Assembly: GCF_014701235.1 (NCBI RefSeq)
Contig: NZ_AP022873.1
Span: 868,001 to 932,000 of the forward strand
Source of the DNA: Dissulfurispira thermophila
Lineage (GTDB): Bacteria; Nitrospirota; Thermodesulfovibrionia; Thermodesulfovibrionales; Dissulfurispiraceae
Direction of reading: 5' to 3'
Length of the DNA: 64,000 nucleotides
In this document: in pieces, positions 1 through 17,648 of the stretch
How positions within the stretch are numbered: position 1 is the first letter of the stretch
Layout of the letters: each line of letters begins with the position of its first letter
Notes under the pieces: generated by a model
What the model saw: only the letters and a program-made list of their open reading frames with translations
Databases searched by the model: none
Told to the model about the DNA's origin: nothing
Translations under genes and position numbers: made by a program

Positions 1-383
1 ATAAGGGAGCTTCTGAGATAAGCAAAAGAGTTGGCAGACTATACGGATGGCAGGCAACATCAAAAGAGGTAGATGGAGAGATCTTTGATGATATTACAAG
101 GACATTTATGATGAATGAGGATAACAGGAAGTTCTTTGAAGAAAATAATCCATATGCCCTTGAAGAGATTGCAAGAAGGTTAATTGAGGCTGCAGAAAGA
201 GGGCTATGGGAGCCGGCACCTGATGTAAAAGATGCACTAAAAAAGATATATATTGAGATAGAAGGTTGGATTGAAGAAAAGATGGGCGATATCAAGGGTG
301 AGTTTCAAGGTGGAAGCATTGATATTATAACAAAAGAAGAGGTTGAGGGCTGGAAAAAAAAGATGATGGAGGTTCTTAAATGA
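1..383 (+). CDS. CobN/BchH-type metallochelatase large subunit, C-terminal end (partial)
   Basis: The open frame enters from the left edge and ends at a TGA at 381-383; about 127 residues are visible. It resembles the extreme C-terminus of cobaltochelatase CobN / magnesium chelatase H: a [14 protein letters not shown] stretch, then [26 protein letters not shown], the region in which this family carries an ENNPWA-like motif. The large subunit binds the tetrapyrrole and the metal. The stop overlaps the start of the BchI-like ATPase by four bases (ATGA) and a BchD-like gene follows, so this is probably a conventional cytoplasmic, ATP-driven three-subunit chelatase. Which metal it inserts (Co, Mg or Ni) cannot be told from this end. 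A second CobN is encoded at the end of the locus. Confidence 0.85.
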
Positions 384-1390
384 TTTTCCCTTTTACAGCA
401 ATAGTAAATCAGGAAAAGATGAAGCTTGGATTGATCCTTAATGTGATTGACTCATCCATTGGTGGTTTATTGATAATGGGTGAAAAAGGAACGGCAAAAA
501 GCACTGCAGTTCGTGCATTAGCTGAGCTTTTACCAGAAATAGAAGTATCTTGTGAATGCAGATTTAATTGTGATCCCAAAGGATATTTATGCAGTGAGTG
601 CAAGGAAAAATTATTGCAAGAAGGGGGGCTTCAAACGGAGAAAAAACGCATGCGGGTAGTTGAACTTCCTCTCGGTGTAACAGAGGACAGATTGGTAGGG
701 ACCCTTGATATTGAACACGCAATTAAAAAAGGTGAAAAGAGATTTGAGCCCGGGATCCTGGCTGGTGCCAACAGAAATTTTCTTTATGTAGATGAGGTAA
801 ACCTCCTTGAGGACCATATTGTTGACCTTCTTCTTGATTCTGCAGCAATGGGTGTAAATACCGTTGAAAGAGAAGGTATATCATTCTCACATCCTGCAAG
901 GTTTATTCTGGTTGGAACAATGAACCCGGAGGAAGGAGAGTTAAGGCCTCAATTACTTGATAGATTTGGTCTTTGTGTAAGTGTTGCTTCAATAATGGAT
1001 AAAAACCAGAGAATTGAGATTCTAAAAAGAAAGGCAGCTTTTGATTTAAATCCGGAAGAGTTTGCAGAAGAATGGAAAGAGGAACAGGGAAGATTAGCAA
1101 AAAGAATAGTTACAGCCAAGGAAAGGCTAAACTCTATTAAGGTGGATGATGAAATACTGGAAAAGATAGTATCAATCACATCTAATCTGAATCTTGATGG
1201 ACACAGGGCGGATATTGTGATATTAAAGACAGCGAGGGCTCTTGCCTCATTCAGAGAAAAAGATGCGATTACAAGAGACGAGATAAAGGATGCAGCAGTG
1301 ATCGCATTAAGACATAGGCTTAAAAGACTACCCTTTGAGGATATCGAAGAAGAAGGGAAAAAACTAAATCAAATCTTTGCAGAGTTTTAA
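380..1390 (+). CDS. bchI: Chelatase AAA+ ATPase subunit, BchI/ChlI-like
   Basis: This 336-residue AAA+ ATPase of the magnesium/cobalt chelatase I family forms rings with the D subunit and drives metal insertion by the H/N subunit. Walker A is GEKGTAKST (residues 34-42) and Walker B is FLYVDEVN (D138, E139); the family [20 protein letters not shown] segment follows. It has a five-cysteine insertion (C58, C60, C64, C71, C74), seen in many BchI homologues. The ATG overlaps the upstream stop by four bases and has GGAGG seven bases ahead, so translation is coupled to the CobN-type subunit. The alternative name CobS is less likely, because CobS lacks this cysteine insertion and pairs with CobT. Confidence 0.92.
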
Positions 1391-1391
1391 G

Positions 1392-3230
1392 ATGAACTTT
1401 AGTGACTTCATAGGACACGATGATGCTAAGTTAAGCTTGATACTAAACGCTATAGATCCAAACTGTGGCGGGGTAATATTTGTTGGTGAAAGAGGCACTG
1501 GCAAATCAACCCTTGCAAGACTTTTAAAAAATATACTGCCTGATGATACTCCTTTTGTGGAGATGCCTCTCAATGTTACTGAAGATGCGCTTTTAGGCGG
1601 TATCGATATTGATGCCACGATTAGAACAGGCAAGAGGGTCATTCAGAAGGGATTATTAAGCAGGGCAAATAATGGATTTTTTTATATTGACGATATAAAC
1701 CTTTTACCTCCACACATACTTTCAATTATCCTTGAGGTTCAAAATAGAGGCAAGGTTGTTATTGAAAGAGAAGGCTTCTCAATCAAAGAGTCTGCAAGAT
1801 TTATAATCCTTGCGACAATGAACCCGCAGGAAGGCTTAATTTCGCCACATATGCTCGATAATTTTGGCATGTGTGCATTCTTTGAATCCCTTAAAGATCC
1901 TGCAAAAAGAGTGAGTATCTTAAAGACGCAGCTTGGGCTTGCACAGAGTGAGTCAGATAAGGGTTTGCTGAATAAGATTGGTACTGCCAGAATGAATTTA
2001 GAAAAGATTAAGGTCATAAAAGAGATCAAAGAGTACATTGTAAAACTCTGTATGGATAGCAATATCTCAGGACATAGAGGCGAGATATTTTTATTCTATG
2101 CTGCAAGGGCTTATGCAGCATATATGGGTGAAAGTAGTTTAAAAAAAGAGCATGTTGACACAGTTTTGCCTTTAGTCTTTATTCACAGGCAAAGAGTTCT
2201 TGAAGAGAAAAAGCAAGAGCAGAAAGAAATAGATCACCAGAGCAGAGAGGAAAAACAGGAAGGAAATAGAGACCACGAACAGGGTATGGAACAACAAAAC
2301 AAAGATAATGAAAGCGAAGATGAAAGTAAATTTAATACTAATATGGAGCAAAGAGAAAGCCTGCCAGATGAAGAAATATTTGATGTTGGTGAGAGCTTTA
2401 AGACTAAAAGGTTACTCTTTAAAAAAGACCAAAAGATCAGGGTTGCGACTGGCAGAAGGACAAAGACTAAGGTAAAAGGCAGAAGTGGTAGATATGTAAA
2501 GAGTTTGATGAACTCAAGGATAAAAGACATTGCCATAGATGCAACTATCAGGGCAGCTGCGCCTTTTCAAAGAGCAAGAATGATTCAAGGAAATAGAGGA
2601 GATTCTACTATCATCATAAAAGACGAGGACATAAGGTATAAGCAGAGAGAAAAAAGAATGGGGCATCTTGTTATATTTGTGGTAGATGGATCAGGCTCAA
2701 TGGGCGTGCAAAAAAGGATGGTAGAGACAAAGGGGGCTATAAAATCTCTTCTCATGGATTGCTACCAAAAAAGAGACAGAGTTTCTTTGATTGTTTTCAG
2801 AAAAGACAAAGCAGAGGCAATTTTGCCACCAACATCAAGTGTTCAATTGGCATCAAAAAAACTAAAAGAAATCCCCACAGGCGGTAAAACACCGCTTGGA
2901 GATGGTCTTTTAGAGACCTATAGGTTGATAAAGAATGTTTCAATAAAAGAACCAGAAACGAGATTTATAGTAATCCTAATCTCCGATGGTAAGGCAAATC
3001 AAAATTCTACTAAATTAAGCGTTGAAGAGGAAATAGAAAGAATTTCATTATCACTCACAGAATTACCCTATGTTGATTTTATAGTAATTGACACAGAAGA
3101 AAAGGGAAAATTCTTAACAACAGATTATGCAAAAAAAATTGCCTCATATCTTAAGGCAGATTATTACACTATAAAAGATTTAAAGGTAGAAGATTTAACA
3201 GAGATTGTAAAGGTGGCAAAAAAGGAGTAA
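1392..3230 (+). CDS. bchD: Chelatase subunit D-like: AAA+ domain plus VWA domain
   Basis: About 612 residues. The N-terminal half repeats the BchI fold, with Walker A GERGTGKST (about residues 32-40) and FFYIDDINLL as Walker B. A highly charged Glu/Lys/Gln-rich linker follows (about residues 270-330). The C-terminal half is a von Willebrand A domain whose MIDAS motif DGSGSMG begins at D432, with later TPLGDGL and ISDGKAN segments. This is the ChlD/BchD layout; the D subunit bridges the I ring and the large subunit. An in-frame ATG at 1377 lies inside the previous gene. I prefer 1392 because MNFSDFIGHDDAKL then aligns with the start of the BchI-like protein. Confidence 0.9.
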   Translation: MNFSDFIGHDDAKLSLILNAIDPNCGGVIFVGERGTGKSTLARLLKNILPDDTPFVEMPLNVTEDALLGGIDIDATIRTGKRVIQKGLLSRANNGFFYIDDINLLPPHILSIILEVQNRGKVVIEREGFSIKESARFIILATMNPQEGLISPHMLDNFGMCAFFESLKDPAKRVSILKTQLGLAQSESDKGLLNKIGTARMNLEKIKVIKEIKEYIVKLCMDSNISGHRGEIFLFYAARAYAAYMGESSLKKEHVDTVLPLVFIHRQRVLEEKKQEQKEIDHQSREEKQEGNRDHEQGMEQQNKDNESEDESKFNTNMEQRESLPDEEIFDVGESFKTKRLLFKKDQKIRVATGRRTKTKVKGRSGRYVKSLMNSRIKDIAIDATIRAAAPFQRARMIQGNRGDSTIIIKDEDIRYKQREKRMGHLVIFVVDGSGSMGVQKRMVETKGAIKSLLMDCYQKRDRVSLIVFRKDKAEAILPPTSSVQLASKKLKEIPTGGKTPLGDGLLETYRLIKNVSIKEPETRFIVILISDGKANQNSTKLSVEEEIERISLSLTELPYVDFIVIDTEEKGKFLTTDYAKKIASYLKADYYTIKDLKVEDLTEIVKVAKKE

Positions 3231-3958: not shown

Positions 3959-4032
3959 AAAAGAAAGGAGGTGGTAGGGCATTAGGTTCAAGGTTTAAAG
4001 TTTAAGATTCAAAGTTCAAGGCTTAAAAGACA

Positions 4033-4122
4033 GGGCAGGGACTCCTCGCCAAAGGTTTCACCCCTGCCCGGAAGGAGACGCTGTGAACGCCCCCTTATTT
4101 TGATTTTATCAGAAATGGGGGG
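4033..4122 (+). promoter_or_regulatory. Structured 5' leader, candidate Moco/Tuco-like riboswitch
   Basis: The leader of the first TonB receptor gene can fold strongly. GGGCAGGG (4033-4040) pairs perfectly with CCCTGCCC (4062-4069). CTCC (4042-4045) in that loop can pair with GGAG (4074-4077), giving a pseudoknot or an alternative fold. CCCCC (4090-4094) can pair with GGGGG (4117-4122) shortly before the GGAGG of the gene. The strings ACTCC..GCC, AAAGGTTTCACC and GGAAGGAG recall, from memory, the molybdenum/tungsten cofactor RNA, especially the short form. No covariance model was run, and the downstream genes look nickel/cobalt-related, so the class is uncertain although the structure is clear. 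Confidence 0.4.
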
Positions 4123-4156
4123 TGAGAGGGAAATTGATTTGAGGAGGTTTTAGGTA

Positions 4157-6151
4157 ATGAGATTAATTATATCTATTTTTTTGATGTTTTGTGTGTCTAT
4201 TTCTCAAATAGTCTATGCGAAGGTAACAACTATTGATGAGGTGGTTGTAGAGGGTGAAGCTATTGCAGAAGATAAAGCTAATATTTCTGTTAAAAGTGAA
4301 ACACTCCCAGCTTCTGTTAATGTGATAACCAAAGAAGATTTAGAAAAAATGCCTATAAGACATTATTTAGATATGTTTAGAAAAACCCCTGGAATGATTA
4401 CAAGTCATTATGGGCAGGGTGATATTGCAGACGGCTTTGGCATGAGGGGGTATCAGAGTGGGCATGGAAGCGAGGTTGCGATATTTGTTGATGGTGTGCC
4501 TATAAATATTCCTCATCATAGTCATTCACACGGCTTTGCTGATATAGGTTGGCTTGTGCCTGAAATGATAGAGCGGATAGAGGTTATAAAAGGACCATTT
4601 TCAGCCCTTTACGGAAACTTTGCGCTTGGAGGGGTTATTAACATAATTACAAAAAAATCTGATAAGACTCCAATCATCGGTGCAGAGTTGGGCAGTTATG
4701 ATGCTTATCGGGGGATTACAACTATTTCAAGATCGGACTGGAAACCAACACCATTTCTACTTTATGAGGCGTATACAAAAAACGGATATAGGGATAATTC
4801 TGATTATACCCGATATAATCTTTTTAATAAGCTCACAGTGCCTTTATTGAATGGCAAGCTTTCAATCAGGGTACATTATGTCAACAGAGATTGGGGAGCT
4901 CCTGGTTATCTTTCAGTTGATGATGTGAAGAATGGGACGCGTAAGAGAACAGATGCTATAAATCCTACAGATGGGGGTAATAGTGAATATTATAACCTTG
5001 TTTTAAATTATACGCCAAGCAGTGGAGAGGCTGGCCCTCATGCTACATTGTATGCAGCTTCTGAAGATTTGAATCGTTATGCTACTTTCCCTCCAAGCTC
5101 ACAGAGATTAGAGCATAATGAGCGTGTATTTTATGGATGGAATTTGCTTTACAATTATATGCCAAATAAAAACCTTTCTCTAATTTTTGGAACAGATGGA
5201 AGATACGACAATGGTGACAGACAAAGATATAACACAACTAATAGAGTCCAAACCTCTACAACTCAGAACTGGCACATTGAGGAGACGAATATAGGGCTAT
5301 TCTTTCAAGGACAATACAGGCCTGTGGATTTTCTGAAGGTTGTAGGTGGACTTCGTTATGACATTTTTAGGTTTGACATTGAAAACAAAATAAGACCCGG
5401 CAATTCAGGTAGTGGCGATACCTCTATTTTCAGTCCTAAAATAGGATTTGTTATAGCGCCGATTAAAAATCTAAATATCTTTGCAAACAAGGGATTGGGA
5501 TTCAGGTCTCCAGCAGCAGATGAAATGTCACCTCCTGATAAAGATTATAAGAATTTTAATCTTAAACCTGCAAAGGTTGATACATGGGATATCGGATTTA
5601 ATACACTATTGTTTGACAAGCTCCATCTCTTGTTTGATTATTATCAGACAGATATGGAAAGGGAGATCAGAAATGTGGGTGCTGATACAATTAATATTGG
5701 CAAGTCTAAAAGGGATGGTTATGAGATAGAAGCAAAAATTTATGCTACAAATGACCTTGTTATATACTCCAATTATGGTTGGGTAAAAGCTAAAATAAAA
5801 AATCCTGATACAACAGGTGAAGATAAGATAACAGGTGTGCCAAAAAAATATATTGGCACTGGAGTAGAATGGCAGCATAGTTTTGGCAAAGATAAAAGAT
5901 TGTTAATAGATCTTGGTTATCAATATTTAGGCAAGGCTCCTTTAAATGCTGCCGGTACAATATATCGCCCTCCTGTTGACCGCTATATGACAAAGGCAAC
6001 ATATAATATCAAGGAATGGTCGTTATTTGCAGAATCAACCTATCATCCTAAAAAGTATGCATCTGAAGGAATGTTTCTTATAGGGGGTGTTCCTGTTTAT
6101 GACCCAAAACCTGTGTGGGATGTAACTGCTGGAATAAAATACAAATTTTAG
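4157..6151 (+). CDS. TonB-dependent outer-membrane receptor, probable Ni/Co
   Basis: A 664-residue precursor with signal peptide (about residues 1-21, ending VYA), a TonB-box-like TIDEVVVEG, a plug domain (SVNVITKEDLEKMP to GGVINIITKKS) and a 22-strand-type barrel ending in Phe (GIKYKF). In the plug loop a histidine cluster HHSHSHG (residues 120-126) could touch a metal. The two following genes encode DUF4198 and NikL-like proteins, which accompany nickel/cobalt transporters, and a CooT-like gene lies upstream, so a nickel or cobalt complex is the likeliest substrate. GGAGG stands nine bases before the ATG. Regulation is probably through the structured leader. Confidence 0.85.
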   Translation: MRLIISIFLMFCVSISQIVYAKVTTIDEVVVEGEAIAEDKANISVKSETLPASVNVITKEDLEKMPIRHYLDMFRKTPGMITSHYGQGDIADGFGMRGYQSGHGSEVAIFVDGVPINIPHHSHSHGFADIGWLVPEMIERIEVIKGPFSALYGNFALGGVINIITKKSDKTPIIGAELGSYDAYRGITTISRSDWKPTPFLLYEAYTKNGYRDNSDYTRYNLFNKLTVPLLNGKLSIRVHYVNRDWGAPGYLSVDDVKNGTRKRTDAINPTDGGNSEYYNLVLNYTPSSGEAGPHATLYAASEDLNRYATFPPSSQRLEHNERVFYGWNLLYNYMPNKNLSLIFGTDGRYDNGDRQRYNTTNRVQTSTTQNWHIEETNIGLFFQGQYRPVDFLKVVGGLRYDIFRFDIENKIRPGNSGSGDTSIFSPKIGFVIAPIKNLNIFANKGLGFRSPAADEMSPPDKDYKNFNLKPAKVDTWDIGFNTLLFDKLHLLFDYYQTDMEREIRNVGADTINIGKSKRDGYEIEAKIYATNDLVIYSNYGWVKAKIKNPDTTGEDKITGVPKKYIGTGVEWQHSFGKDKRLLIDLGYQYLGKAPLNAAGTIYRPPVDRYMTKATYNIKEWSLFAESTYHPKKYASEGMFLIGGVPVYDPKPVWDVTAGIKYKF

Positions 6152-6163
6152 GGAGGCTAAAAA

Positions 6164-6862
6164 ATGATTTATAAGATAGTAGTTTTTTTTACATTGGTGC
6201 TTGTGATTGCTTGTAATGCCTTTGCCCATGATGCATGGATTGAGAAAAAAGATGGGCAATTTATCGTACTTTATGGACATGGCGGTAAAACCGAAACTTA
6301 TGATGCAGCCAAAGTTAAAGAAGTGAGGGCATACGGGATTGACAGCAGTATCGTTCAGGTGGCAATCGGAAAAGAAGGTTATCCTGTAATAATAAAACCC
6401 AATGGCAAAGTAGCCCTTATCTCTCTTTTCTTTGACAACGGTTTTTGGTCAAAGACGCCTGACGGCTATAAAAACAAGCCTAAAAAAGAAGTGCCTGATG
6501 CTGTAGAGTCATCTCATTCCATAAAATACAGCAAGGCTATTTTAAAGTGGAGCAACAGATTTTCAAAACCACTTGGCATGCAAATGGAGATAGTTCCTTT
6601 AAAAAATCCGTTTTCACTTAAAGCAGGAGATAAGCTTCCCTTAAAGGTCTTTCTTGACGGCAAGATAGCAGAAGGGGTTTCAATCAATGCCGGAAGTTAT
6701 CACAAGGACGATATGAAAACAGATAAAAATGGCATGGCAGAGGTAGAGATTGAAAAGGCAGGGTTTCAGATAATAGCAGCAAGCATAAAAATCCCGCTTA
6801 AAGACAATCCAAACGTAGATTTTTTATCTATCTCTGCTAATATCACCTTTGAGGTAAAATAA
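6164..6862 (+). CDS. DUF4198 family periplasmic protein (NikK-like)
   Basis: A 232-residue exported protein. After a signal peptide ending NAFA the mature chain starts HDAWIEKKDGQF, with an exposed histidine as in DUF4198 proteins. An Ig-like second half contains AEGVSINAGSYHKDD and TDKNGMAEVEIEKAG. Family members accompany nickel and cobalt importers and are thought to bind metal in the periplasm. It starts 12 bases after the receptor stop and overlaps the next gene (TAATG), forming a compact three-gene unit. Confidence 0.82.
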   Translation: MIYKIVVFFTLVLVIACNAFAHDAWIEKKDGQFIVLYGHGGKTETYDAAKVKEVRAYGIDSSIVQVAIGKEGYPVIIKPNGKVALISLFFDNGFWSKTPDGYKNKPKKEVPDAVESSHSIKYSKAILKWSNRFSKPLGMQMEIVPLKNPFSLKAGDKLPLKVFLDGKIAEGVSINAGSYHKDDMKTDKNGMAEVEIEKAGFQIIAASIKIPLKDNPNVDFLSISANITFEVK

Positions 6863-7299
6863 TGTCTAAAATTTTATATGCAATAATGCTTGTGCTTCTG
6901 ATTTATTCAGGGGCACAAGCCCATTCTATTCACTATCAGGTAGAAAACAAGGGTATTAGTGCAAGGATATTTTATTCTGCCAATGACCCTGCAAGCTATT
7001 CAGGGTATGAGATATTTGGTCCCGGCGATAAAATTCCCCATCAAAAGGGTAGGACAGATAAAAATGGTTTTGTCTCTTTTCTGCCAGACCGTGCAGGGAC
7101 ATGGATTATAAAAGTCTTTGGCGAATCTGACCACGGCTATCACGGAGCGCAAATAGAAGTGAATGTAGATGAAGGCATGTTCATGGAGTCTTTCAAAAAA
7201 CCATTGGCAGCTACGCATACAAAGCTAATTATTGGCATTGGATTGATGGGATGGATATTTGGAGCAATGGCGTTGTTTAAAAGAAGAAAAGATATCTGA
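6862..7299 (+). CDS. NikL-like small periplasmic protein with C-terminal anchor
   Basis: This 145-residue product has a signal peptide ending AQA, a mature start HSIHYQVENKGI with two early histidines, an Ig-like domain containing GRTDKNGFVSFLPDRAGTW, and a single C-terminal membrane helix (LIIGIGLMGWIFGAMALF) followed by a basic KRRKD tail. That layout matches the NikL component of ECF-type nickel transporters. No NikM or NikQ/O partner is encoded here, so the inner-membrane transporter must be elsewhere or different. Its start overlaps the preceding stop (TAATG). Confidence 0.72.
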   Translation: MSKILYAIMLVLLIYSGAQAHSIHYQVENKGISARIFYSANDPASYSGYEIFGPGDKIPHQKGRTDKNGFVSFLPDRAGTWIIKVFGESDHGYHGAQIEVNVDEGMFMESFKKPLAATHTKLIIGIGLMGWIFGAMALFKRRKDI

Positions 7300-7340: not shown

Positions 7341-8111
7341 ATGCAAACAGTAGAAAAAGATAAATATCAAATAGAGACCTTTGAGGACATTTTAAATGTC
7401 TTGAGGGAGAAGCCTGACTGGCGCGAAGAGTTAAGAAGAATTATCCTTACAGATGATCTTATGAATCTACCAAAGAGGTTTGAGATATTTATAAGAGATG
7501 ATTTTAAACCACTTCAAGTCAAGGTAGATAAAATAGAGCAGGATGTTGGGGTTCTAAAGCAGGATGTTGGGGTTCTAAAGCAGGATGTTGGGGTTCTAAA
7601 GCAGGATGTTGGGGTTCTAAAACAGGATGTTGGAGTTCTAAAGCAAGATGTTGAGGTTTTAAAACAGGATGTTGAGGTTTTAAAACAGGATGTTGAGGTT
7701 TTGAAGCAGGATGTTGCATCATTAAAAGAGAGTGATTTTGAGAGGACTGTTAGAGAGAAGGCGCCTGCATATTTTGGAAGGCTCATCAGGAGGTGTAGGG
7801 TTATAAGCTTTGAGACATTAGCGGATAAGCTTGAGGATGCTGTTGATATTAGCTTGATAAGTGATAAAGACAAAGACAATGCACTTCTTTTAGATGCAGT
7901 TGTATCTGGGAAGCTGAAGACTGGCAAGGATATAATACTTGCTGTAGAGATCTCTCTAAAGGTTGATGTAGAGGATGTCCAAAGGGCTGCCCAGAGGGCT
8001 GATATAGTTAGCAAGGCACTTAGGACCGAGACCATAGGTGTTGCTATAGGTAAAGATAGGACACAAAAAGCAGAGGTTAAAGCAGAAGAATTAAATGTAA
8101 TCCTTATATAG
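7341..8111 (+). CDS. Coiled-coil protein with predicted PD-(D/E)XK-like C-terminus
   Basis: A 256-residue protein. Residues 67-129 consist of nine heptads, mainly QDVGVLK and QDVEVLK, a perfect coiled coil. The C-terminal 120 residues (LEDAVDISLISDKDKDNALLLDAVVSG, then ILAVEISLKVDVEDVQRAAQRADIV) resemble the nuclease-like tail of DUF3782-type coiled-coil proteins; the Glu in VEIS would be a catalytic candidate. The function of such proteins is unknown. It lies between the Ni/Co uptake operon and the cobalamin riboswitch with no evident link to either, and may be a single-gene unit. Confidence 0.7.
   Translation: MQTVEKDKYQIETFEDILNVLREKPDWREELRRIILTDDLMNLPKRFEIFIRDDFKPLQVKVDKIEQDVGVLKQDVGVLKQDVGVLKQDVGVLKQDVGVLKQDVEVLKQDVEVLKQDVEVLKQDVASLKESDFERTVREKAPAYFGRLIRRCRVISFETLADKLEDAVDISLISDKDKDNALLLDAVVSGKLKTGKDIILAVEISLKVDVEDVQRAAQRADIVSKALRTETIGVAIGKDRTQKAEVKAEELNVILI
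7539..7727 (+). repeat. Nine 21-bp tandem repeats inside a coding region
   Basis: Nine head-to-tail 21-base units of the type CAGGATGTTGGGGTTCTAAA(G/A). Units 1-4 are almost identical, 5-8 have drifted slightly (GTTGAGGTT), and the ninth is divergent. The period equals one heptad, so unit gain or loss keeps frame and only changes coiled-coil length. Near-identity of the first units points to recent slippage or recombination. Confidence 0.95.
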
Positions 8112-8448: not shown

Positions 8449-10464
8449 ATGAAAAGATTTTCGTCATTTGTTGTTACATTTCTATTTTTAACCTTTAGCT
8501 ATTTGCCATTTACTCTTAACCTGTCTGCTATTCCTGTCTTTGCAGAACAGAAGACCGCATCGCTTGAAGAAATCGTAGTAACTGCAACAAAGATTGAAGA
8601 ACCCAAAAAGGATGTTCCTGCACCTGTCCATATAATCACTCAAGAAGACATAAAGAATTCTACTGCAAGGAATGCCGGTGACCTCATTTCAGAGGCAGCA
8701 ATTGGGCATGTGCACAAGTATCCAGGCACGCTTACAGGCAGGATTGCATTGAGGGGATTAACTACAGATCTTTTCAGTGATTTAAAAAGCAGGGTGCTTG
8801 TTCTCATCAATGGACATCGTGCAGGCACTGTGAATTTAGCAAAGATACCTGTAGAGGACATCGAAAGGATTGAGATAGTTAAAGGGCCTGCATCTGTTCT
8901 TTATGGTTCTTCTGCAATGGGTGGTGTTATTAATATCATTACCAAAGAGGGCAGAGAGGGTTTCCATGGCTCTATCGGTAGTGAAATCGGCTCATGGAGA
9001 TACTGGAAGACGCAGGCTGAACTGAGTGGAAAGAGAGGGGCTTTTGACTTTTATTTGACTGCAAGCCGTTCTTCTTCAGGTGATTTTGAGGCAAAGGATT
9101 ATGGAAAGATTCAGAATACAGGATATGACGATGAAACAGTATCAGCCCGTTTTGGATACAAATTTTTTGACAGCCATCATATATCCATAGGTTTTCAGCA
9201 CTGGAAGGGATTGGAGATTGGCTCACCAGGCGCCAGGTACTCTCCTGACCCTGATAATTATTCAGACAGGGGACGGGACGGCTTTGACATTAGATATAAA
9301 ACAGCAGACTTCGAAGCTAAATATTATCTTATCAAAGATAGGGATGAATGGCACGGAGGCATGACATCCGGCATAGGGAATTCAAATATTACCCTAACAA
9401 AAACAGATACACAGGGGACAAGCATCCAGAAGACATTTGCCATAGGTGATCACAGAGTGATCTTTGGAGGGCAATGGGACAGGATAGAGGTTGATAGCTC
9501 AAGAAACACGGGCGCGCCTTATAATCCAAACTCAAGATACGACAGCTATGGCGCATTTACAGAAGGTAGGTTAAGTCTTTTCGATAAAAAACTTCTTTTA
9601 AGTGCAGGGCTTCGTTATGACTATTTTGAAAATGAGATACTTTCAACCCAGGGTATAATAAGCTTGAAACCGAAGAAGGAAGATATTGACCATGTGACTG
9701 CAAGAGGTGGAGTTGTTTATAAGCTTACAGATGAAATAAGCCTTAAAGGCAATATAGGCACAGCATTCCGCTCACCGGCGCCTGACGAACTTGCTACGGA
9801 TTATGTATCTTCATGGGGAACACGATATATAGGAAATCCTAATCTAAAGCCTGAAAAGAGCACATCCTACGATGCAGGAATTGAATATTCAAAAGATTTA
9901 TTCAAGGGCGGTTTAATCTTCTTCCATACAGATTTCAAAGACAAGATATTAGGTTATTATGACAGCATACTTAAAGCACAGACATTCAAGAATGTTGATG
10001 GTGCAACACTTCAGGGTATTGAAGCAAATCTTTCTTATGATATTGGATTGGCTTCTGGCCTTGATTTATCCATAGAGCCTTTTACGAACATTACCTATCA
10101 CACAAAGTATTCAAGCAAGGACGAACTTGAAATAGGCAAATATGGGAAAACACTTCTTTATACTCCTAAGTGGACAGGCGCCTTTGGAATAAAGGCAGGC
10201 AAGGAACGGTGGGATGTAAGGTTTATTGCAAATTATATAGGTGATGAAAAGGTGCAGGATTGGGATTTTAATTCGCCAACATACGGAAAAGCTATAGACA
10301 AAGGCGATTTTACAGTGGTGAATCTGAAAGGCTCTTATAGGCCAATAAAGAATCTCGAAATCACTGTATCTGTAGAAAACCTCTTTGACAGGGCATATGA
10401 GTATGTGTTGGGTTATCCAATGCCAGAGAGAACATTTATTGGAGGTGTTAAATGGATATTTTAG
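8449..10464 (+). CDS. btuB: BtuB-like TonB-dependent cobalamin receptor
   Basis: A 671-residue precursor with a signal peptide ending VFA, a TonB box (SLEEIVVTATK), a plug domain (PAPVHIITQEDI to IEIVKGPASVLYGSSAMGGVINIITK) and a barrel ending in Phe (GGVKWIF). The cobalamin riboswitch directly upstream and the CbiZ gene overlapping its end identify the substrate as a corrinoid. An AGGGAGGAAAAG site precedes the ATG. It differs clearly from the first receptor of the window and lacks that protein's histidine cluster. Confidence 0.92.
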   Translation: MKRFSSFVVTFLFLTFSYLPFTLNLSAIPVFAEQKTASLEEIVVTATKIEEPKKDVPAPVHIITQEDIKNSTARNAGDLISEAAIGHVHKYPGTLTGRIALRGLTTDLFSDLKSRVLVLINGHRAGTVNLAKIPVEDIERIEIVKGPASVLYGSSAMGGVINIITKEGREGFHGSIGSEIGSWRYWKTQAELSGKRGAFDFYLTASRSSSGDFEAKDYGKIQNTGYDDETVSARFGYKFFDSHHISIGFQHWKGLEIGSPGARYSPDPDNYSDRGRDGFDIRYKTADFEAKYYLIKDRDEWHGGMTSGIGNSNITLTKTDTQGTSIQKTFAIGDHRVIFGGQWDRIEVDSSRNTGAPYNPNSRYDSYGAFTEGRLSLFDKKLLLSAGLRYDYFENEILSTQGIISLKPKKEDIDHVTARGGVVYKLTDEISLKGNIGTAFRSPAPDELATDYVSSWGTRYIGNPNLKPEKSTSYDAGIEYSKDLFKGGLIFFHTDFKDKILGYYDSILKAQTFKNVDGATLQGIEANLSYDIGLASGLDLSIEPFTNITYHTKYSSKDELEIGKYGKTLLYTPKWTGAFGIKAGKERWDVRFIANYIGDEKVQDWDFNSPTYGKAIDKGDFTVVNLKGSYRPIKNLEITVSVENLFDRAYEYVLGYPMPERTFIGGVKWIF

Positions 10465-11360: not shown

Positions 11361-12143
11361 ATGGATTTAAACATCATTTTATGGATTGTGGGAATGCTTT
11401 TCAGTCTTGGCATATTTGCTGTTAAGGTTGGATTCGGTCTTGGCTTTAGCGGAATGAAATGGAAGGGTGTGCTTCTAACCCTTTCCCTGTATCTTATGCT
11501 GTTTGTTGCTATAGCCGTGCTTTCAGAGCATTTGATAAAACTCCTTGAGCCTGTTTTGAAAAAAGGGCCATATCTCCATGCGCTTATGGCAGCAGGGATG
11601 ATTGCATGGGGAATATATTTAGTGCAACAGAGCAGTAGAGCGACAGAGCGACAGATAAAAATTCAGGCTGAAGGCTTAAGGCTGAAGGAAAAATCAGAAA
11701 TCGGAAATCTAAAATCCAAAAACTCTTTACTCGTTACTCATCACTCTTTACTTTTATTGATCCCCTGTCCTGTATGTCTTTCCGCAATGACATTTTCCAC
11801 ATGGGCGGCTCTGAGCGTGATTAAACTACCGTCTCTCATTGTGGGCATAGGACTGGGTGTTATCTTTGCCCTTTTGACCCTTACAATTGTGGGTCTAACC
11901 CGCATCAAACAGACTTCAAGCCCTGAAGTCAGTCTGGGACTGGGCATGATTGCAATTGGGCTTTATTTCATGGCTTCTCTGTATCTTCCTGCCAAGATTG
12001 AGGAGGCAAGGGGGATGTATCAGTCATTTCTTACAGAGGGCAGCAATATTGCCCTGAATAATAATATCGGCGTATTTGCACTGCTTTTTGTTGCCTTGGT
12101 TATTGGTTATCTTACAAATAAAAACCGGGAGGTTAAGAAGTGA
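11361..12143 (+). CDS. DUF2162-like integral membrane protein
   Basis: This 260-residue protein has about six or seven membrane helices. Between helices 3 and 4 a hydrophilic stretch (about residues 92-125) is encoded by low-complexity repeat sequence, followed by LIPCPVCLSAMTFS, whose CPVC pair sits at the start of a helix. It matches proteins annotated as DUF2162 putative transporters, which as I recall lie beside ExbB/MotA-like, DUF2149 and CobN genes in methanogens and some bacteria. It has an AGTGAGGTG site before the ATG, and its stop overlaps the GTG of the next gene. Substrate unknown. Confidence 0.75.
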   Translation: MDLNIILWIVGMLFSLGIFAVKVGFGLGFSGMKWKGVLLTLSLYLMLFVAIAVLSEHLIKLLEPVLKKGPYLHALMAAGMIAWGIYLVQQSSRATERQIKIQAEGLRLKEKSEIGNLKSKNSLLVTHHSLLLLIPCPVCLSAMTFSTWAALSVIKLPSLIVGIGLGVIFALLTLTIVGLTRIKQTSSPEVSLGLGMIAIGLYFMASLYLPAKIEEARGMYQSFLTEGSNIALNNNIGVFALLFVALVIGYLTNKNREVKK

Positions 12144-13072: not shown

Positions 13073-13411
13073 ATGAGATTTCTGAAGAGACACAGAAGAT
13101 TTGATAAATACGAGCAACCCCTTGAAGATCCAATCTCAGGGGTCGCCAATCTCTTTGATGCAAGCGTTGTCTTTATTGTGAGCATGATGATTGCTCTTTT
13201 CATGGCGTATAACATGCTTGATCTGCTTGATCCTAAATCAGAGGTGACGATTACAAAAAAGACTGCCGATGGAAAGATAGAGATAGTAACAAAGAAGGGC
13301 AAAGAGATAAGGGTACAAAAAGTGACAGATAAACGACTAAGCGGTGAAGGACGCCGACTCGGAACAGCGTATCAATTAAAGGATGGGAGGACTATTTATG
13401 TGCCTGAGTAA
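13073..13411 (+). CDS. DUF2149 family protein, ExbD-like topology
   Basis: This 112-residue protein has a short basic cytoplasmic start, the family segment DPISGVANLFDASVVFIVSMMIALFMAYNML (one membrane helix beginning with an Asp), and a periplasmic tail of about 60 residues. This single-helix layout with an acidic residue at the membrane parallels ExbD/TolR/MotB, so I infer it is the stator partner of the ExbB-like protein. It overlaps the frame of the following cobN. A small antisense gene separates it from the ExbB-like gene. Confidence 0.8.
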   Translation: MRFLKRHRRFDKYEQPLEDPISGVANLFDASVVFIVSMMIALFMAYNMLDLLDPKSEVTITKKTADGKIEIVTKKGKEIRVQKVTDKRLSGEGRRLGTAYQLKDGRTIYVPE

Positions 13412-16400
13412 GCTAAACCTTTTTATATTTTTTTATTTCTTTTTTGTCTTGAATCTTAAAGTATATGAGAAAACTCAATGCACTGATTACAGCAATAAAT
13501 GCTACCAGTGCGATCACATCAGTTGGATAAATTTCCATTTATCTCCCCCCTATTCTTTATCAGATATCAGAAAATACCCTAAATATAACAACAAAATTCC
13601 TAATATAGAGGCAATTATAGCACTGAGTAATCTAATCTTTTCCGCGAAGATTGAACTGATTGCAACAGCAGTAAGAAGGTATTTAGCAAGGTCAAAAACT
13701 ACCTTTGCAACTTCTTTTCTACCGTCTATTTTTTGCGTATTTAACACTATCATTTTATTTATCTTTTGTCAAACTGCCCATGCCGAGCCTTTAAAGATAA
13801 GCCTTCTTCCTGGTGACACACATACAAAGACCGCTGTAGAGGCGATTAAGGCAGTCAGGAGTCAAGGGGTTGAAGATATTTCATTGCATGTCTATCCATT
13901 AAAAGGCATTCGAAATGAAGACCTTGAATATCTCAAAAATTCAAAGCTAATAATCGTAAATATAATGGGCAGACAGATTGTAGACGCTGTTAAATCGGAG
14001 ATTCAGTATGCAATAAAAAACGGCGCAAAGGTCTATGCTGTAGCAGCAAGCGGTTCTTATAATAATGAGATGAAAGCTCTCGGCATAATGGTAGATAAAA
14101 AGATTGAAGAATACTATCAAGAGGGAGGGTCAGAGAATTTTAAAAATATGATTTTTTATGCCTTAAAGAAGGATTTCGGTTTTGACATTTCTTATGGCAA
14201 AGCGATCAAGGTTGCGGAGTTTGGAATATATGACTATAAAACAAAGAGGATTTTTGGAGACTTTGAAGAATTTAAAAAGGTCAATGGTCAGAGAGACAGG
14301 CATTGGATTGGAATAGTATTTTACAGAAATACTATTGTATCAGGGCAGACAAAGCATATAGACGCTCTGGTTGAAGGTCTTGAAGAAGAAGGCTTTAATG
14401 TCCTGCCTGTGTATGGCTGGCCGTCTGAAACTGCGATTGAGAAATTTTTCTTTGATGAAAACGGTAAGAGTCGTGTAGGGCTTGTAGTTGCAATGGGTAT
14501 GAAGATCGGGATAAATCCAGAGATAGCTATACCTATTCTAAGCAGGCTTGGTGTGCCTGTAATCAATGCTATCACTCTGTACAGTCAATCAAAGGAGGAA
14601 TGGGAAAAATCTCCTTCAGGTCTTGATATTTTCGAGAGGGCATGGCAGATAGCTGGCACTGAAATGGCTGGAATTATCCAGCCCATTGTTATTGCCTCAA
14701 AGGAGAGAATGATTGATAAAGAGACAGGCATTGAATACATAGAAGAAAGGCCGATCCCTGAAAGGATAAAGAGGCTTGTTGACAGGGTGAAGGCATGGAT
14801 AAATCTTCAGGATAAGGCTAACAAAGATAAGAGGCTTGCCATCATCTATTACAATTATCCCCCGGGCAAGCAGAACATCGGTGCATCGTACCTTAATGTG
14901 CTTCCTGAGAGTCTGTGGGAGATATATGAAAGACTTAAGGCTGAAGGCTATAGGCTGAAGGCTGAAGAAATGACGAAAGAGAGGCTGTTTGAGGATGTGC
15001 ATAATTATGCCAGAAACATCGGCAACTGGGCTGCTGGTGAGATTGATAGACTTGCAAGGAGTGGTAAGCCAATACTTATTCCTGTTGACACTTACAAAAG
15101 ATGGTTTGAGGAATTGCCTGAAGGATTAAAAAAGGCGGTTATCAAAGACTGGGGCAAGCCTGAAGACAATAAGATGATGTCATGGACAGGTGCGAGTGGG
15201 ACGAAATATATCGTTATTCCTGCTATAAGATACGGAAATATCCTTTTTACACCGCAGCCATCAAGGGGATGGGAGCAGGATATAAAGAAACTCTATCACG
15301 ATGTAACCCTTGCACCCCATCATCAATATGTAGCCTTTTATCTATGGCTGAAGAATGAATTTCAGGCAGATGCCATTGCCCATATCGGAACACACGGAAC
15401 CCACGAATGGCTTTCGGGAAAAGAGGTCGGTTTTACCAACGAAGACCCGCCGGAGGCATTGATTCAGGATTTACCTAATATCTATCCATACATTGTTGAT
15501 GATGTTGGCGAGGGACTTCAGGCAAAGAGAAGGGGGATGGCAGTTATTATTGATCACATGACACCGCCCTTTGATAAGGCAGGGATGAATAAGGAGTTAA
15601 AAGAGCTTTCTGCCCTTATTAGTGATTACAACAATGCAAAAGAAAAGAGCCCGGCCATTGCTGAGTCAAGGCTCGGTGAGATAAATACTCTGGCAAAGAA
15701 GATGGGCATCCTTAAAGATATTGGCCTTATGGATATAAAGACAATGGATGATATAGAAAAACTCGATGACTATATAAAAGAAATTGGTGAAAAGGTTACG
15801 CCCTTCGGGCTCCACACCTTTGGCAAGTCTCCAGAAGAAAGATATATAAAGACAACGGCAGAGGCGATTGTTTCTATTGAAAGGGATTTGAGCAAGGAAG
15901 AAAAAGAAAAAAGGATTGCAGAACTTGAAAGCAGAATAATCCAAAGTGGACAGAGAGAACTTGACTCTTTTATTGCTGCACTTTCTGGCAGATATGTTCC
16001 TGCAGGTCAGGGCAACGACCCTATAAGAAGCCATGATTCTCTGCCAACAGGCAAAAACTTCTACTCCTTTGATCCCACAAGGATACCAGCAAAAGGAACA
16101 TATGAGATGGGGGTAAGGTTAGCAAAAGAACTCATAGAAGACTATAAACAAAGGCACGGCATTTACCCTGACAAACTCACATTTGTTCTATGGGCCGTTG
16201 AGACCATAAGGCATGAAGGGGTGATGGAGTCCCAGATTATGTATCTCATGGGCATAAAGCCGAAATGGGATGAAAGGGGCAGGGTGATTGGCGTTGAGGC
16301 AGTCCCACGCTTTGAACTTGGCAGACCTCGCATTGATGTAACCATTGTCCCATCAGGGCTTTACAGGGATTTGTTCTCAAACCTTATGGCTCTGCTTGAT

Positions 16401-17648
16401 AAGGTGGTGGCAATGACAAAAGAACAGAATGAAGAAGACAACATACTCCGTGCAAATGTGCAAAGGACGAAGAAGATGCTTATGGAAAAAGGGATTCAAG
16501 AAGATATGGCAGAAAGGCTTGCTACTGTGAGGATATTCACCGAACCTCCAGGCGCTTATGGGACGGGACTTTCTAATGTGATACCCCTTTCTAACACATG
16601 GGAAAATGAAAAGCAGGTTATTGATGTCTATTTTATGCGGATGAGCCACATGTTCGGGCAGGGATTTTGGGGGAATAAAATTGGGAATGAGGAGTTAGGA
16701 GTTAAGAGTGATGAAGATGTGAGTCTTACAATCTTTAAAAATGCCCTTTCCGATACAAAGGTAGTGGTTCACAGCCGTTCAGGTAATGTTTATGCAACTC
16801 TTGATAACGATGATTTTTTCCAGTATCTTGGCGGAACTGCAATGGCAATCCGTGCAATTGACGGCAAGACACCTAAAGTTTATGTTACAAATATGTCCAA
16901 TCCAAAACAGCCAAAACAGGAGACCCTTGAAAAATTTATGGGCAGTGAGATGAGGAGCAGGTATCTTAATCCAGAATGGATAAAGGCTATGATGAAAGAA
17001 GGATATGCAGGTGCGAGATTTATTGATAAGGTTGTAGAACATCTCTGGGGATGGCAAGTGACAGTGCCAGAGATAGTAGATTCAGCAAAATGGAATGAGA
17101 TGTATGAAACCTATGTTCTGGATAGAAACGGACTTGGTATAAAGGAGATGTTCAGGCAATCAAAGAATATGTGGGCATACCAATCCATTGTAGCAAGGAT
17201 GCTTGAGACAGTCAGAAAGGATTATTGGAGGGTTGATAAAAAGATTATTGAGACTCTCGCAAAGGAATATGCAGAAAGTGTTAAGGAGGTTGGTCTTGCA
17301 TGCTGTGACCACACATGCAATAATCCAATGCTTACAAGATTTACAGCATCTGTTTTAATCTCAGTGCCTGGATTGAAAAATCAAGCGAGTGGATTTATGA
17401 AGGCATTGGATAAAATTAAAAATCCAGAACAACAGAGCAATAGCGTAGAAGTTCGTAAGCCTTCAGTCTTAAGCCTTCAGCCTAAATTAGCTCCTGATGG
17501 AAGAGGCAAAGGGGTGGAAGGCTATGAAATGCAGGATGTGAGTGCAACTGCTGGTGCATCATCTGCGCCAATTCCTTATCTTTTCCTTATCGGTTTTCTC
17601 GTGTTTATCGGGCTTATTGCATGGGGATTCAGGAAGAGGTCTTTGTAA
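13398..17648 (+). CDS. cobN: Exported, membrane-anchored CobN-like metallochelatase subunit
   Basis: A CobN/BchH-family protein of about 1,290 residues past its signal peptide. Family landmarks include GTHGTHEWLSGKEVGF, DPPEALIQDLPNIYPYIVDDVGEG, LWAVETIRHEGVMESQIMYLMG and PPGAYGTGLSNVIPLS. The mature chain probably begins at AEPLKISLLPGD (about 13785) after a hydrophobic segment ending QTAHA. The C-terminus carries a membrane helix (YLFLIGFLVFIGLIAWGF) and a basic RKRSL tail. Both ends place the catalytic body in the periplasm. ATG 13398 has GGGAGG seven bases upstream and overlaps the DUF2149 stop, but the first 115 codons look like antisense of small genes, so the true start is unsettled. 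No ATP-driven partner lies in this operon; the neighbours are motor-like. Confidence 0.85.
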   Translation: MCLSKLNLFIFFYFFFVLNLKVYEKTQCTDYSNKCYQCDHISWINFHLSPPYSLSDIRKYPKYNNKIPNIEAIIALSNLIFSAKIELIATAVRRYLARSKTTFATSFLPSIFCVFNTIILFIFCQTAHAEPLKISLLPGDTHTKTAVEAIKAVRSQGVEDISLHVYPLKGIRNEDLEYLKNSKLIIVNIMGRQIVDAVKSEIQYAIKNGAKVYAVAASGSYNNEMKALGIMVDKKIEEYYQEGGSENFKNMIFYALKKDFGFDISYGKAIKVAEFGIYDYKTKRIFGDFEEFKKVNGQRDRHWIGIVFYRNTIVSGQTKHIDALVEGLEEEGFNVLPVYGWPSETAIEKFFFDENGKSRVGLVVAMGMKIGINPEIAIPILSRLGVPVINAITLYSQSKEEWEKSPSGLDIFERAWQIAGTEMAGIIQPIVIASKERMIDKETGIEYIEERPIPERIKRLVDRVKAWINLQDKANKDKRLAIIYYNYPPGKQNIGASYLNVLPESLWEIYERLKAEGYRLKAEEMTKERLFEDVHNYARNIGNWAAGEIDRLARSGKPILIPVDTYKRWFEELPEGLKKAVIKDWGKPEDNKMMSWTGASGTKYIVIPAIRYGNILFTPQPSRGWEQDIKKLYHDVTLAPHHQYVAFYLWLKNEFQADAIAHIGTHGTHEWLSGKEVGFTNEDPPEALIQDLPNIYPYIVDDVGEGLQAKRRGMAVIIDHMTPPFDKAGMNKELKELSALISDYNNAKEKSPAIAESRLGEINTLAKKMGILKDIGLMDIKTMDDIEKLDDYIKEIGEKVTPFGLHTFGKSPEERYIKTTAEAIVSIERDLSKEEKEKRIAELESRIIQSGQRELDSFIAALSGRYVPAGQGNDPIRSHDSLPTGKNFYSFDPTRIPAKGTYEMGVRLAKELIEDYKQRHGIYPDKLTFVLWAVETIRHEGVMESQIMYLMGIKPKWDERGRVIGVEAVPRFELGRPRIDVTIVPSGLYRDLFSNLMALLDKVVAMTKEQNEEDNILRANVQRTKKMLMEKGIQEDMAERLATVRIFTEPPGAYGTGLSNVIPLSNTWENEKQVIDVYFMRMSHMFGQGFWGNKIGNEELGVKSDEDVSLTIFKNALSDTKVVVHSRSGNVYATLDNDDFFQYLGGTAMAIRAIDGKTPKVYVTNMSNPKQPKQETLEKFMGSEMRSRYLNPEWIKAMMKEGYAGARFIDKVVEHLWGWQVTVPEIVDSAKWNEMYETYVLDRNGLGIKEMFRQSKNMWAYQSIVARMLETVRKDYWRVDKKIIETLAKEYAESVKEVGLACCDHTCNNPMLTRFTASVLISVPGLKNQASGFMKALDKIKNPEQQSNSVEVRKPSVLSLQPKLAPDGRGKGVEGYEMQDVSATAGASSAPIPYLFLIGFLVFIGLIAWGFRKRSL
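13413..13538 (-). CDS. 41-residue small membrane protein (antisense)
   Basis: The product has one membrane helix (VIALVAFIAVISALSFLIYF) and a basic tail (KIQDKKEIKKYKK), the classic positive-inside small membrane protein. The ATG at 13536-13538 (reverse) has a very strong GGGGGGAG six bases upstream, and the stop of the 67-residue gene at 13550 lies just ahead of it, so the two form an operon opposite to cobN. Function unknown. Confidence 0.6.
   Translation of the reverse strand: MEIYPTDVIALVAFIAVISALSFLIYFKIQDKKEIKKYKKV
13550..13753 (-). CDS. 67-residue two-helix membrane protein (antisense)
   Basis: The product reads as a soluble start (MIVLNTQKIDGRKEVAKVV), then FDLAKYLLTAVAISSIF and LSAIIASILGILLLYLGYFLI as two hydrophobic helices, ending DKE. 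It resembles the small DUF6722-type membrane proteins, though I am unsure of that name. Its start lies opposite the signal peptide coding region of cobN, and it is followed after 11 bases by the 41-residue gene. Its composition looks more protein-like than the overlapping + strand frame. Confidence 0.58.
   Translation of the reverse strand: MIVLNTQKIDGRKEVAKVVFDLAKYLLTAVAISSIFAEKIRLLSAIIASILGILLLYLGYFLISDKE

Follow-up and report, generated by a model that had tools for sequence, protein, structure and literature searches.

The window analyzed here, a stretch of 64,000 nucleotides, carries a cluster of genes with metal- and corrinoid-related functions, and the element described below is the leader of one of its receptor genes. 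As the preliminary description had placed it, the element lies immediately 5′ of a gene encoding a TonB-dependent receptor (4157 to 6151; Pfam PF00593 and PF07715), the first after the leader, which is followed by genes encoding a DUF4198 protein of the NikK type (6164 to 6862; PF10670) and a NikL-like protein (6862 to 7299; NCBIfam NF058648, E value of 1.7e-9, below the family cutoff), all on the plus strand, as is the leader. The names NikK and NikL are given to such genes in nickel transport (PMC545781), and NikK is used here by analogy. Directly 5′ of the leader, at 3986 to 4027, a 14-bp AT-rich repeat, GTTCAAGGTTTAAA, is present in three head-to-tail copies, and AT-rich filler of this kind precedes several related leaders. 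ChlI/ChlD-like genes lie near the leader-bearing receptor operons (380 to 3230 in the window), and two CobN-like chelatase genes flank these operons at 13383 to 17648 in the window and at 11563 to 15001 in L009, the locus of the second leader copy in this genome. An open reading frame encoding tandem copies of a coiled-coil-type heptad, GVLKQDV, lies at 7341 to 8111, between the NikL-like gene and a cobalamin riboswitch (RF00174; 8169 to 8400, 56.7 bits). This riboswitch is 5′ of a second TonB receptor gene (8449 to 10464) and a CbiZ gene; the adjacent genes for corrinoid import thus have a known RNA switch of their own.

The whole element comprises a hairpin (P1), the helices P2 and P3, a conserved tail, and a G-rich strand, and it spans about 4029 to 4129 (4030 to 4128 in the match of model R2, introduced below); the limits first given, 4033 to 4122, caught the element but not its full extent. 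P1 (4033 to 4069) has perfect 8-bp arms at 4033 to 4040 and 4062 to 4069, a stem already recognized in the preliminary description, and an interior in reverse-complement orientation relative to the usual one. The 5′ strand of P2, AAGG (4072 to 4075), pairs with CCUU at 4093 to 4096 in a helix that covaries in relatives, and the inner P2 pairs C4079-G4089 and G4080-C4088 close a reduced P3 loop, CUGUGAA (4079 to 4089). The 3′ strand of P2 overlaps the CCCCC of an alternative stem, B (4088 to 4124), in which CGCCCCC (4088 to 4094) pairs with GGGGGGUG (4117 to 4124); this stem belongs to the minimum-free-energy fold, excludes P2, and corresponds to the CCCCC...GGGGGG complement 5′ of the ribosome site that had been noticed earlier. 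The tail, AUUUUAUCAGAAA (4103 to 4115), is the most conserved block 3′ of P2 in alignments, and the Shine-Dalgarno sequence of the receptor gene, AGGAGG, is at 4142 to 4147. Both the tail and P2, which covaries and has its 3′ strand in common with the CCCCC stem, had been overlooked; of the three helices named at that time, two need revision. The proposed CTCC/GGAG pseudoknot did not hold up: its letters are complementary in the window, but GGAG is absent in L098 and L101, CTCC is absent from the P1 loops of L009, L098, and L100, and among the five closest members only the window copy has both halves together. The single-sequence fold of the window leader has a stability at shuffle level (z = −0.53), and the case for structure therefore rests on comparison, not on the window sequence alone.

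We searched for relatives with DNA sequence, patterns, and models, both in the order and among 230 genomes of its class and 395 genomes of its phylum. Clear members numbered 23; they come from 19 genomes, every one of them in the order of the window, and their records bear the names Thermodesulfovibrio sp. and Nitrospiraceae, with one labelled Nitrospinota. Model R2, for which 15 members were used and the window copy and its closest kin were left out, recovers the window leader with an E value of 1.6e-10 in 326 kb searched and 1.1e-9 in the whole genome of the window, and its best match in 23 unrelated genomes has an E value of 0.003. A 24th, diverged member (L154; R2 E value of 3e-5) precedes a receptor-DUF4198-NikL operon. 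Those weak matches outside the order that were inspected resembled ordinary terminators or coding sequence. Carrier genomes hold one or two copies. In the genome of the window (2.37 Mb, one contig, 100% complete), the second copy lies ~14 kb upstream; the TonB receptor gene that follows it is a different one, and its operon includes FecBCD-like, ABC, and CobN-like genes. The 3′ two-thirds of the two leaders are 98% identical over 108 nt (window 4045 to 4151 versus L009 4875 to 4982), a closeness that the receptors do not share; it looks as though copying or conversion of the leader took place separately from the genes. Two nearly identical copies in one genome, together with the invertibility of P1, would suit a selfish palindromic repeat (REP or MITE) lying beside these genes by chance, but copies are few, the adjoining genes are always of the same kinds, the element keeps one overall orientation, and P2/P3 covary, all of which makes such a repeat highly improbable.

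According to Pfam, 16 of the 23 members lie directly 5′ of genes encoding TonB-dependent receptors. Four others precede a gene whose product matches Phenol_MetA_deg (small, outer-membrane type), followed by cbiM, which in L150 runs off the contig and was identified by eye; the remaining three are at contig ends, each after exbD. Wherever the downstream gene is readable (20 of 20 members), it is a TonB receptor gene or a CbiM operon, and receptor operons often go on with DUF4198 (NikK-type) and NikL-like genes. The distance from the end of the tail motif to the start codon is 21 to 41 nt across members, and the element is at a fixed place in the 5′ leaders of genes with related functions, as expected of a cis-regulatory RNA. 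The links to NikK/NikL-type genes, CbiM, and NikR agree with the earlier impression that the downstream genes are nickel/cobalt-like; they indicate nickel or cobalt instead of tungstate or molybdate, whose import had been suggested as well. Some receptor operons carry FecBCD-type transporter and CobN-like chelatase genes and could be devoted to another metal or to a tetrapyrrole. These genes lend some weight to a riboswitch for a different ligand, such as a cobalamin precursor, heme or another tetrapyrrole, or a metallophore complex. However, the BtuB-like receptor next door in the window is served by the separate cobalamin riboswitch, and the NikR, NikK/NikL-type, and CbiM links favor nickel or cobalt, leaving a different ligand as a minor contender.

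We aligned 21 cores by sequence alone with MAFFT (A4); in P2 (outer and inner) and P3, 9 of the 11 pairs have changed in a compensatory manner. Compensatory cells in these helices numbered 20, versus 8.6 in shuffles, with none of 500 shuffles reaching as high a count, and versions of P2/P3 slid by 1 to 3 columns gave about half of that count or less. The P2 pairs are AAGG/CCUU in the window, UACG/CGUA in L098, UGAGG/CCUCA in L100, CGGAA/UUCCG in L106, GGGCGGGAA/UUCCCGCUC in L148, and GUGUGGGAA/UUCCCAUAC in L153, and P3 is longer in relatives (UGnn..nnCA) than in the window. In an alignment-free swap test, which permutes partner strands between members and corrects only partly for relatedness, 14 of 50,000 permutations were as good as the observed P2 pairing (9 of 50,000 without close relatives), and the signal in the receptor group alone was modest (1,236 of 50,000; 374 of 50,000 without close relatives). 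When 30 matches, some of them weak, were aligned by fitting to the model, a procedure that favors the model, 16 of 22 pairs had compensatory changes. RNAalifold predicted zero pairs on the sequence-only core alignment, probably owing to register slippage of the short P2 strands, and we therefore used the named-structure counts and swap tests instead. Altogether, the compensatory changes in P2/P3 among the collected homologs, detection by a model trained without the window copy, and the constant place before import genes support the original notion of a regulatory RNA. From these comparisons, we estimate a probability of about 0.8 that the element is a cis-regulatory RNA of a new family acting in a nickel/cobalt-uptake context.

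Receptor-type members carry, after AUUUUAnCAGAAA, a G-rich strand and then the ribosome site, and in these members a CCCC is common to the 3′ strand of P2 and to stem B, where its partner is GGGGUG. Since this strand is shared, P2 and stem B cannot coexist. Stem B covaries too: in the receptor group, 25 of 50,000 swap permutations were as good (546 of 50,000 without close relatives). The computed stability of B alone usually exceeds that of P2/P3 (−19.4 versus −3.6 kcal/mol in the window), and P2 is transcribed before stem B is complete, which suggests a cotranscriptional choice between folds. Exclusive and covarying folds, of the kind that an aptamer with a competing structure would have, are thus found in receptor-type members, while stem B is absent in three cbiM-type members (L148, L150, and L153), of which L148 and L153 have the strongest P2; the P2/B toggle is therefore not universal, and the platform differs there. 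Given that no intrinsic terminator was found at the leader, we prefer translational control. P2/P3 would form first in transcription, a ligand or bound factor would set whether it persists or yields to stem B, and the choice between P2 and B would alter 30S access to the nearby ribosome site. Candidate ligands are Ni2+, Co2+, or a nickel complex. It seems fairly probable that the element exerts riboswitch-type control over the translation of nickel (or cobalt) uptake genes in response to nickel status or a related signal; that it senses nickel or cobalt directly is a more tentative proposition.

The conserved order of the fold is hairpin P1 (GGGCAGGG...CCCTGCCC), P2 enclosing P3, and then the AUUUUAnCAGAAA motif. 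P1 is nearly invariant in sequence and pairing across members, and the spacing of its arms ranges from 16 to 28 nt. The P1 interior is ACCUUUGGCGAGG or near it in many members, and in the window and L101 it is the reverse complement, CCUCGCCAAAGG: the inverted interior has an alignment score of 29 reversed versus 9 forward, and 0 of 2,000 shuffles reach 29. In these two copies, models R1 and R2 additionally hit P1 on the minus strand. In L009, L098, and L100, the interior is longer and diverged, and its orientation is ambiguous by score. Short inverted repeats can invert through recombination or template switching between their arms, and it is plausible that the P1 inversion arose in this way. 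Either function tolerates inversion or these copies are altered. The inverted P1 offers a naturally occurring test of which portion of the RNA is important. The window copy, with its inverted P1, 4-bp P2, and reduced P3, is among the least typical members and may be a degenerate or altered one. Swap tests for pairing of the P1 loop with P2, the tail, or the Shine-Dalgarno region were mostly at chance; pairing of the P1 apex with the G-rich strand reached 97 of 20,000 in one version and was not reproduced with a wider ribosome-site region.

A hairpin that is almost constant in sequence and yet tolerates inversion is not what one would expect if its loop formed a precisely shaped ligand pocket, and it might instead be the binding site of a regulatory protein, such as an RNA-binding repressor or antiterminator. 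We saw no regulator gene common to the surroundings of all members, though, and NikR binds DNA and is missing in most carriers; we consider a protein site a weaker candidate than a ligand-responsive RNA. The same inverted repeat, with an interior found in both orientations, could also behave as an orientation-free site in DNA, that is, as an operator or promoter palindrome. Against such a DNA element, the pairing of P2 is kept while its sequence varies freely, unlike an operator, and the P1 arms vary in spacing. Furthermore, the leader has no sigma-70 promoter match, and the NikR operator, GTGTTAC-N13/14-GTAACAC (PMC545781), was not found near the leaders at 0 to 1 mismatches, with scattered matches only at 2 to 4 mismatches. 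We therefore regard control at the DNA level as unlikely.

A cmscan search against all of Rfam (Rfam 15) found no family at the window leader or in 18 relatives. The Moco RNA model (RF01055; membership above 36 bits) gave no match at the leader up to an E value of 10, its best score in the genome being 11.7 bits elsewhere, and the NiCo riboswitch model (RF02683; membership above 37 bits), which had been named as a check, likewise gave no leader match (best, 13.3 bits elsewhere in the genome). The cobalamin riboswitch model matched only the neighboring site described above. The preliminary comparison with Moco/Tuco RNAs had drawn on G/C-rich motifs that proved superficial: although both are structured 5′ leaders of metal-related genes, helices and genes differ, and since RF01055 is negative and the linked genes are not for molybdenum or tungsten, a variant of that riboswitch can be practically dismissed. 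The other option then raised, a new metal-sensing class, now appears to be the better one. The NiCo riboswitch, reportedly the subject of Furukawa et al. in 2015, is likewise an RNA leader on metal-transport genes in a nickel/cobalt context. It switches on exporters (PMC7266159), whereas the family described here precedes importers and receptors and has another fold. Cobalamin riboswitches also occur 5′ of TonB receptors and cobalt importers but have no conserved core in common with this element. Searches of the open literature turned up no account of an RNA of this kind, and PMC2864571 mentions neither nickel nor TonB. The family is not in Rfam, and an earlier description could exist elsewhere.

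Nickel import is controlled by proteins such as NikR, and the described nickel-responsive riboswitch governs export, so an RNA on importers would fill a regulatory gap where NikR is missing. The NikR regulon (nikMNQO, nikK, and nikL) contains the same kinds of genes and responds to nickel, but there a protein acts on DNA operators (PMC545781). Among the 19 carrier genomes, 16 lack NikR (the complete genome of the window and 15 of the other 18); the three with NikR have it in a leader's cluster, with nikR directly upstream of the leader in G144 and G172 and ~2 kb upstream in G139. Across the order, NikR occurs in 36 of 176 genomes, and its frequency in leader carriers (3 of 19) versus others (33 of 157) does not prove exclusion; in the two families with most leaders (f1 and f9), no genome has it. 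Nickel import in this order may thus be under an RNA switch instead of the usual NikR repressor. Going further, the element could conceivably represent a riboswitch class that would be the first to control import by sensing nickel (or cobalt), standing in for NikR across much of the order and tolerating inversion of its most conserved hairpin, a possibility that we hold only tentatively. An element common to receptors and CbiM-type importers would help to assign the metal of uncharacterized TonB receptors, and an orphan RNA with 23 members and a covarying structure is a defined object for ligand tests. The genome of the window also has a cbiM operon without the element, whose leader (L112, 9990 to 10110) contains a U-tract hairpin, GCCACGAAGGC..GCCTTTGTGGCTTTTTT, and a similar hairpin lies upstream of a weak candidate in L105.
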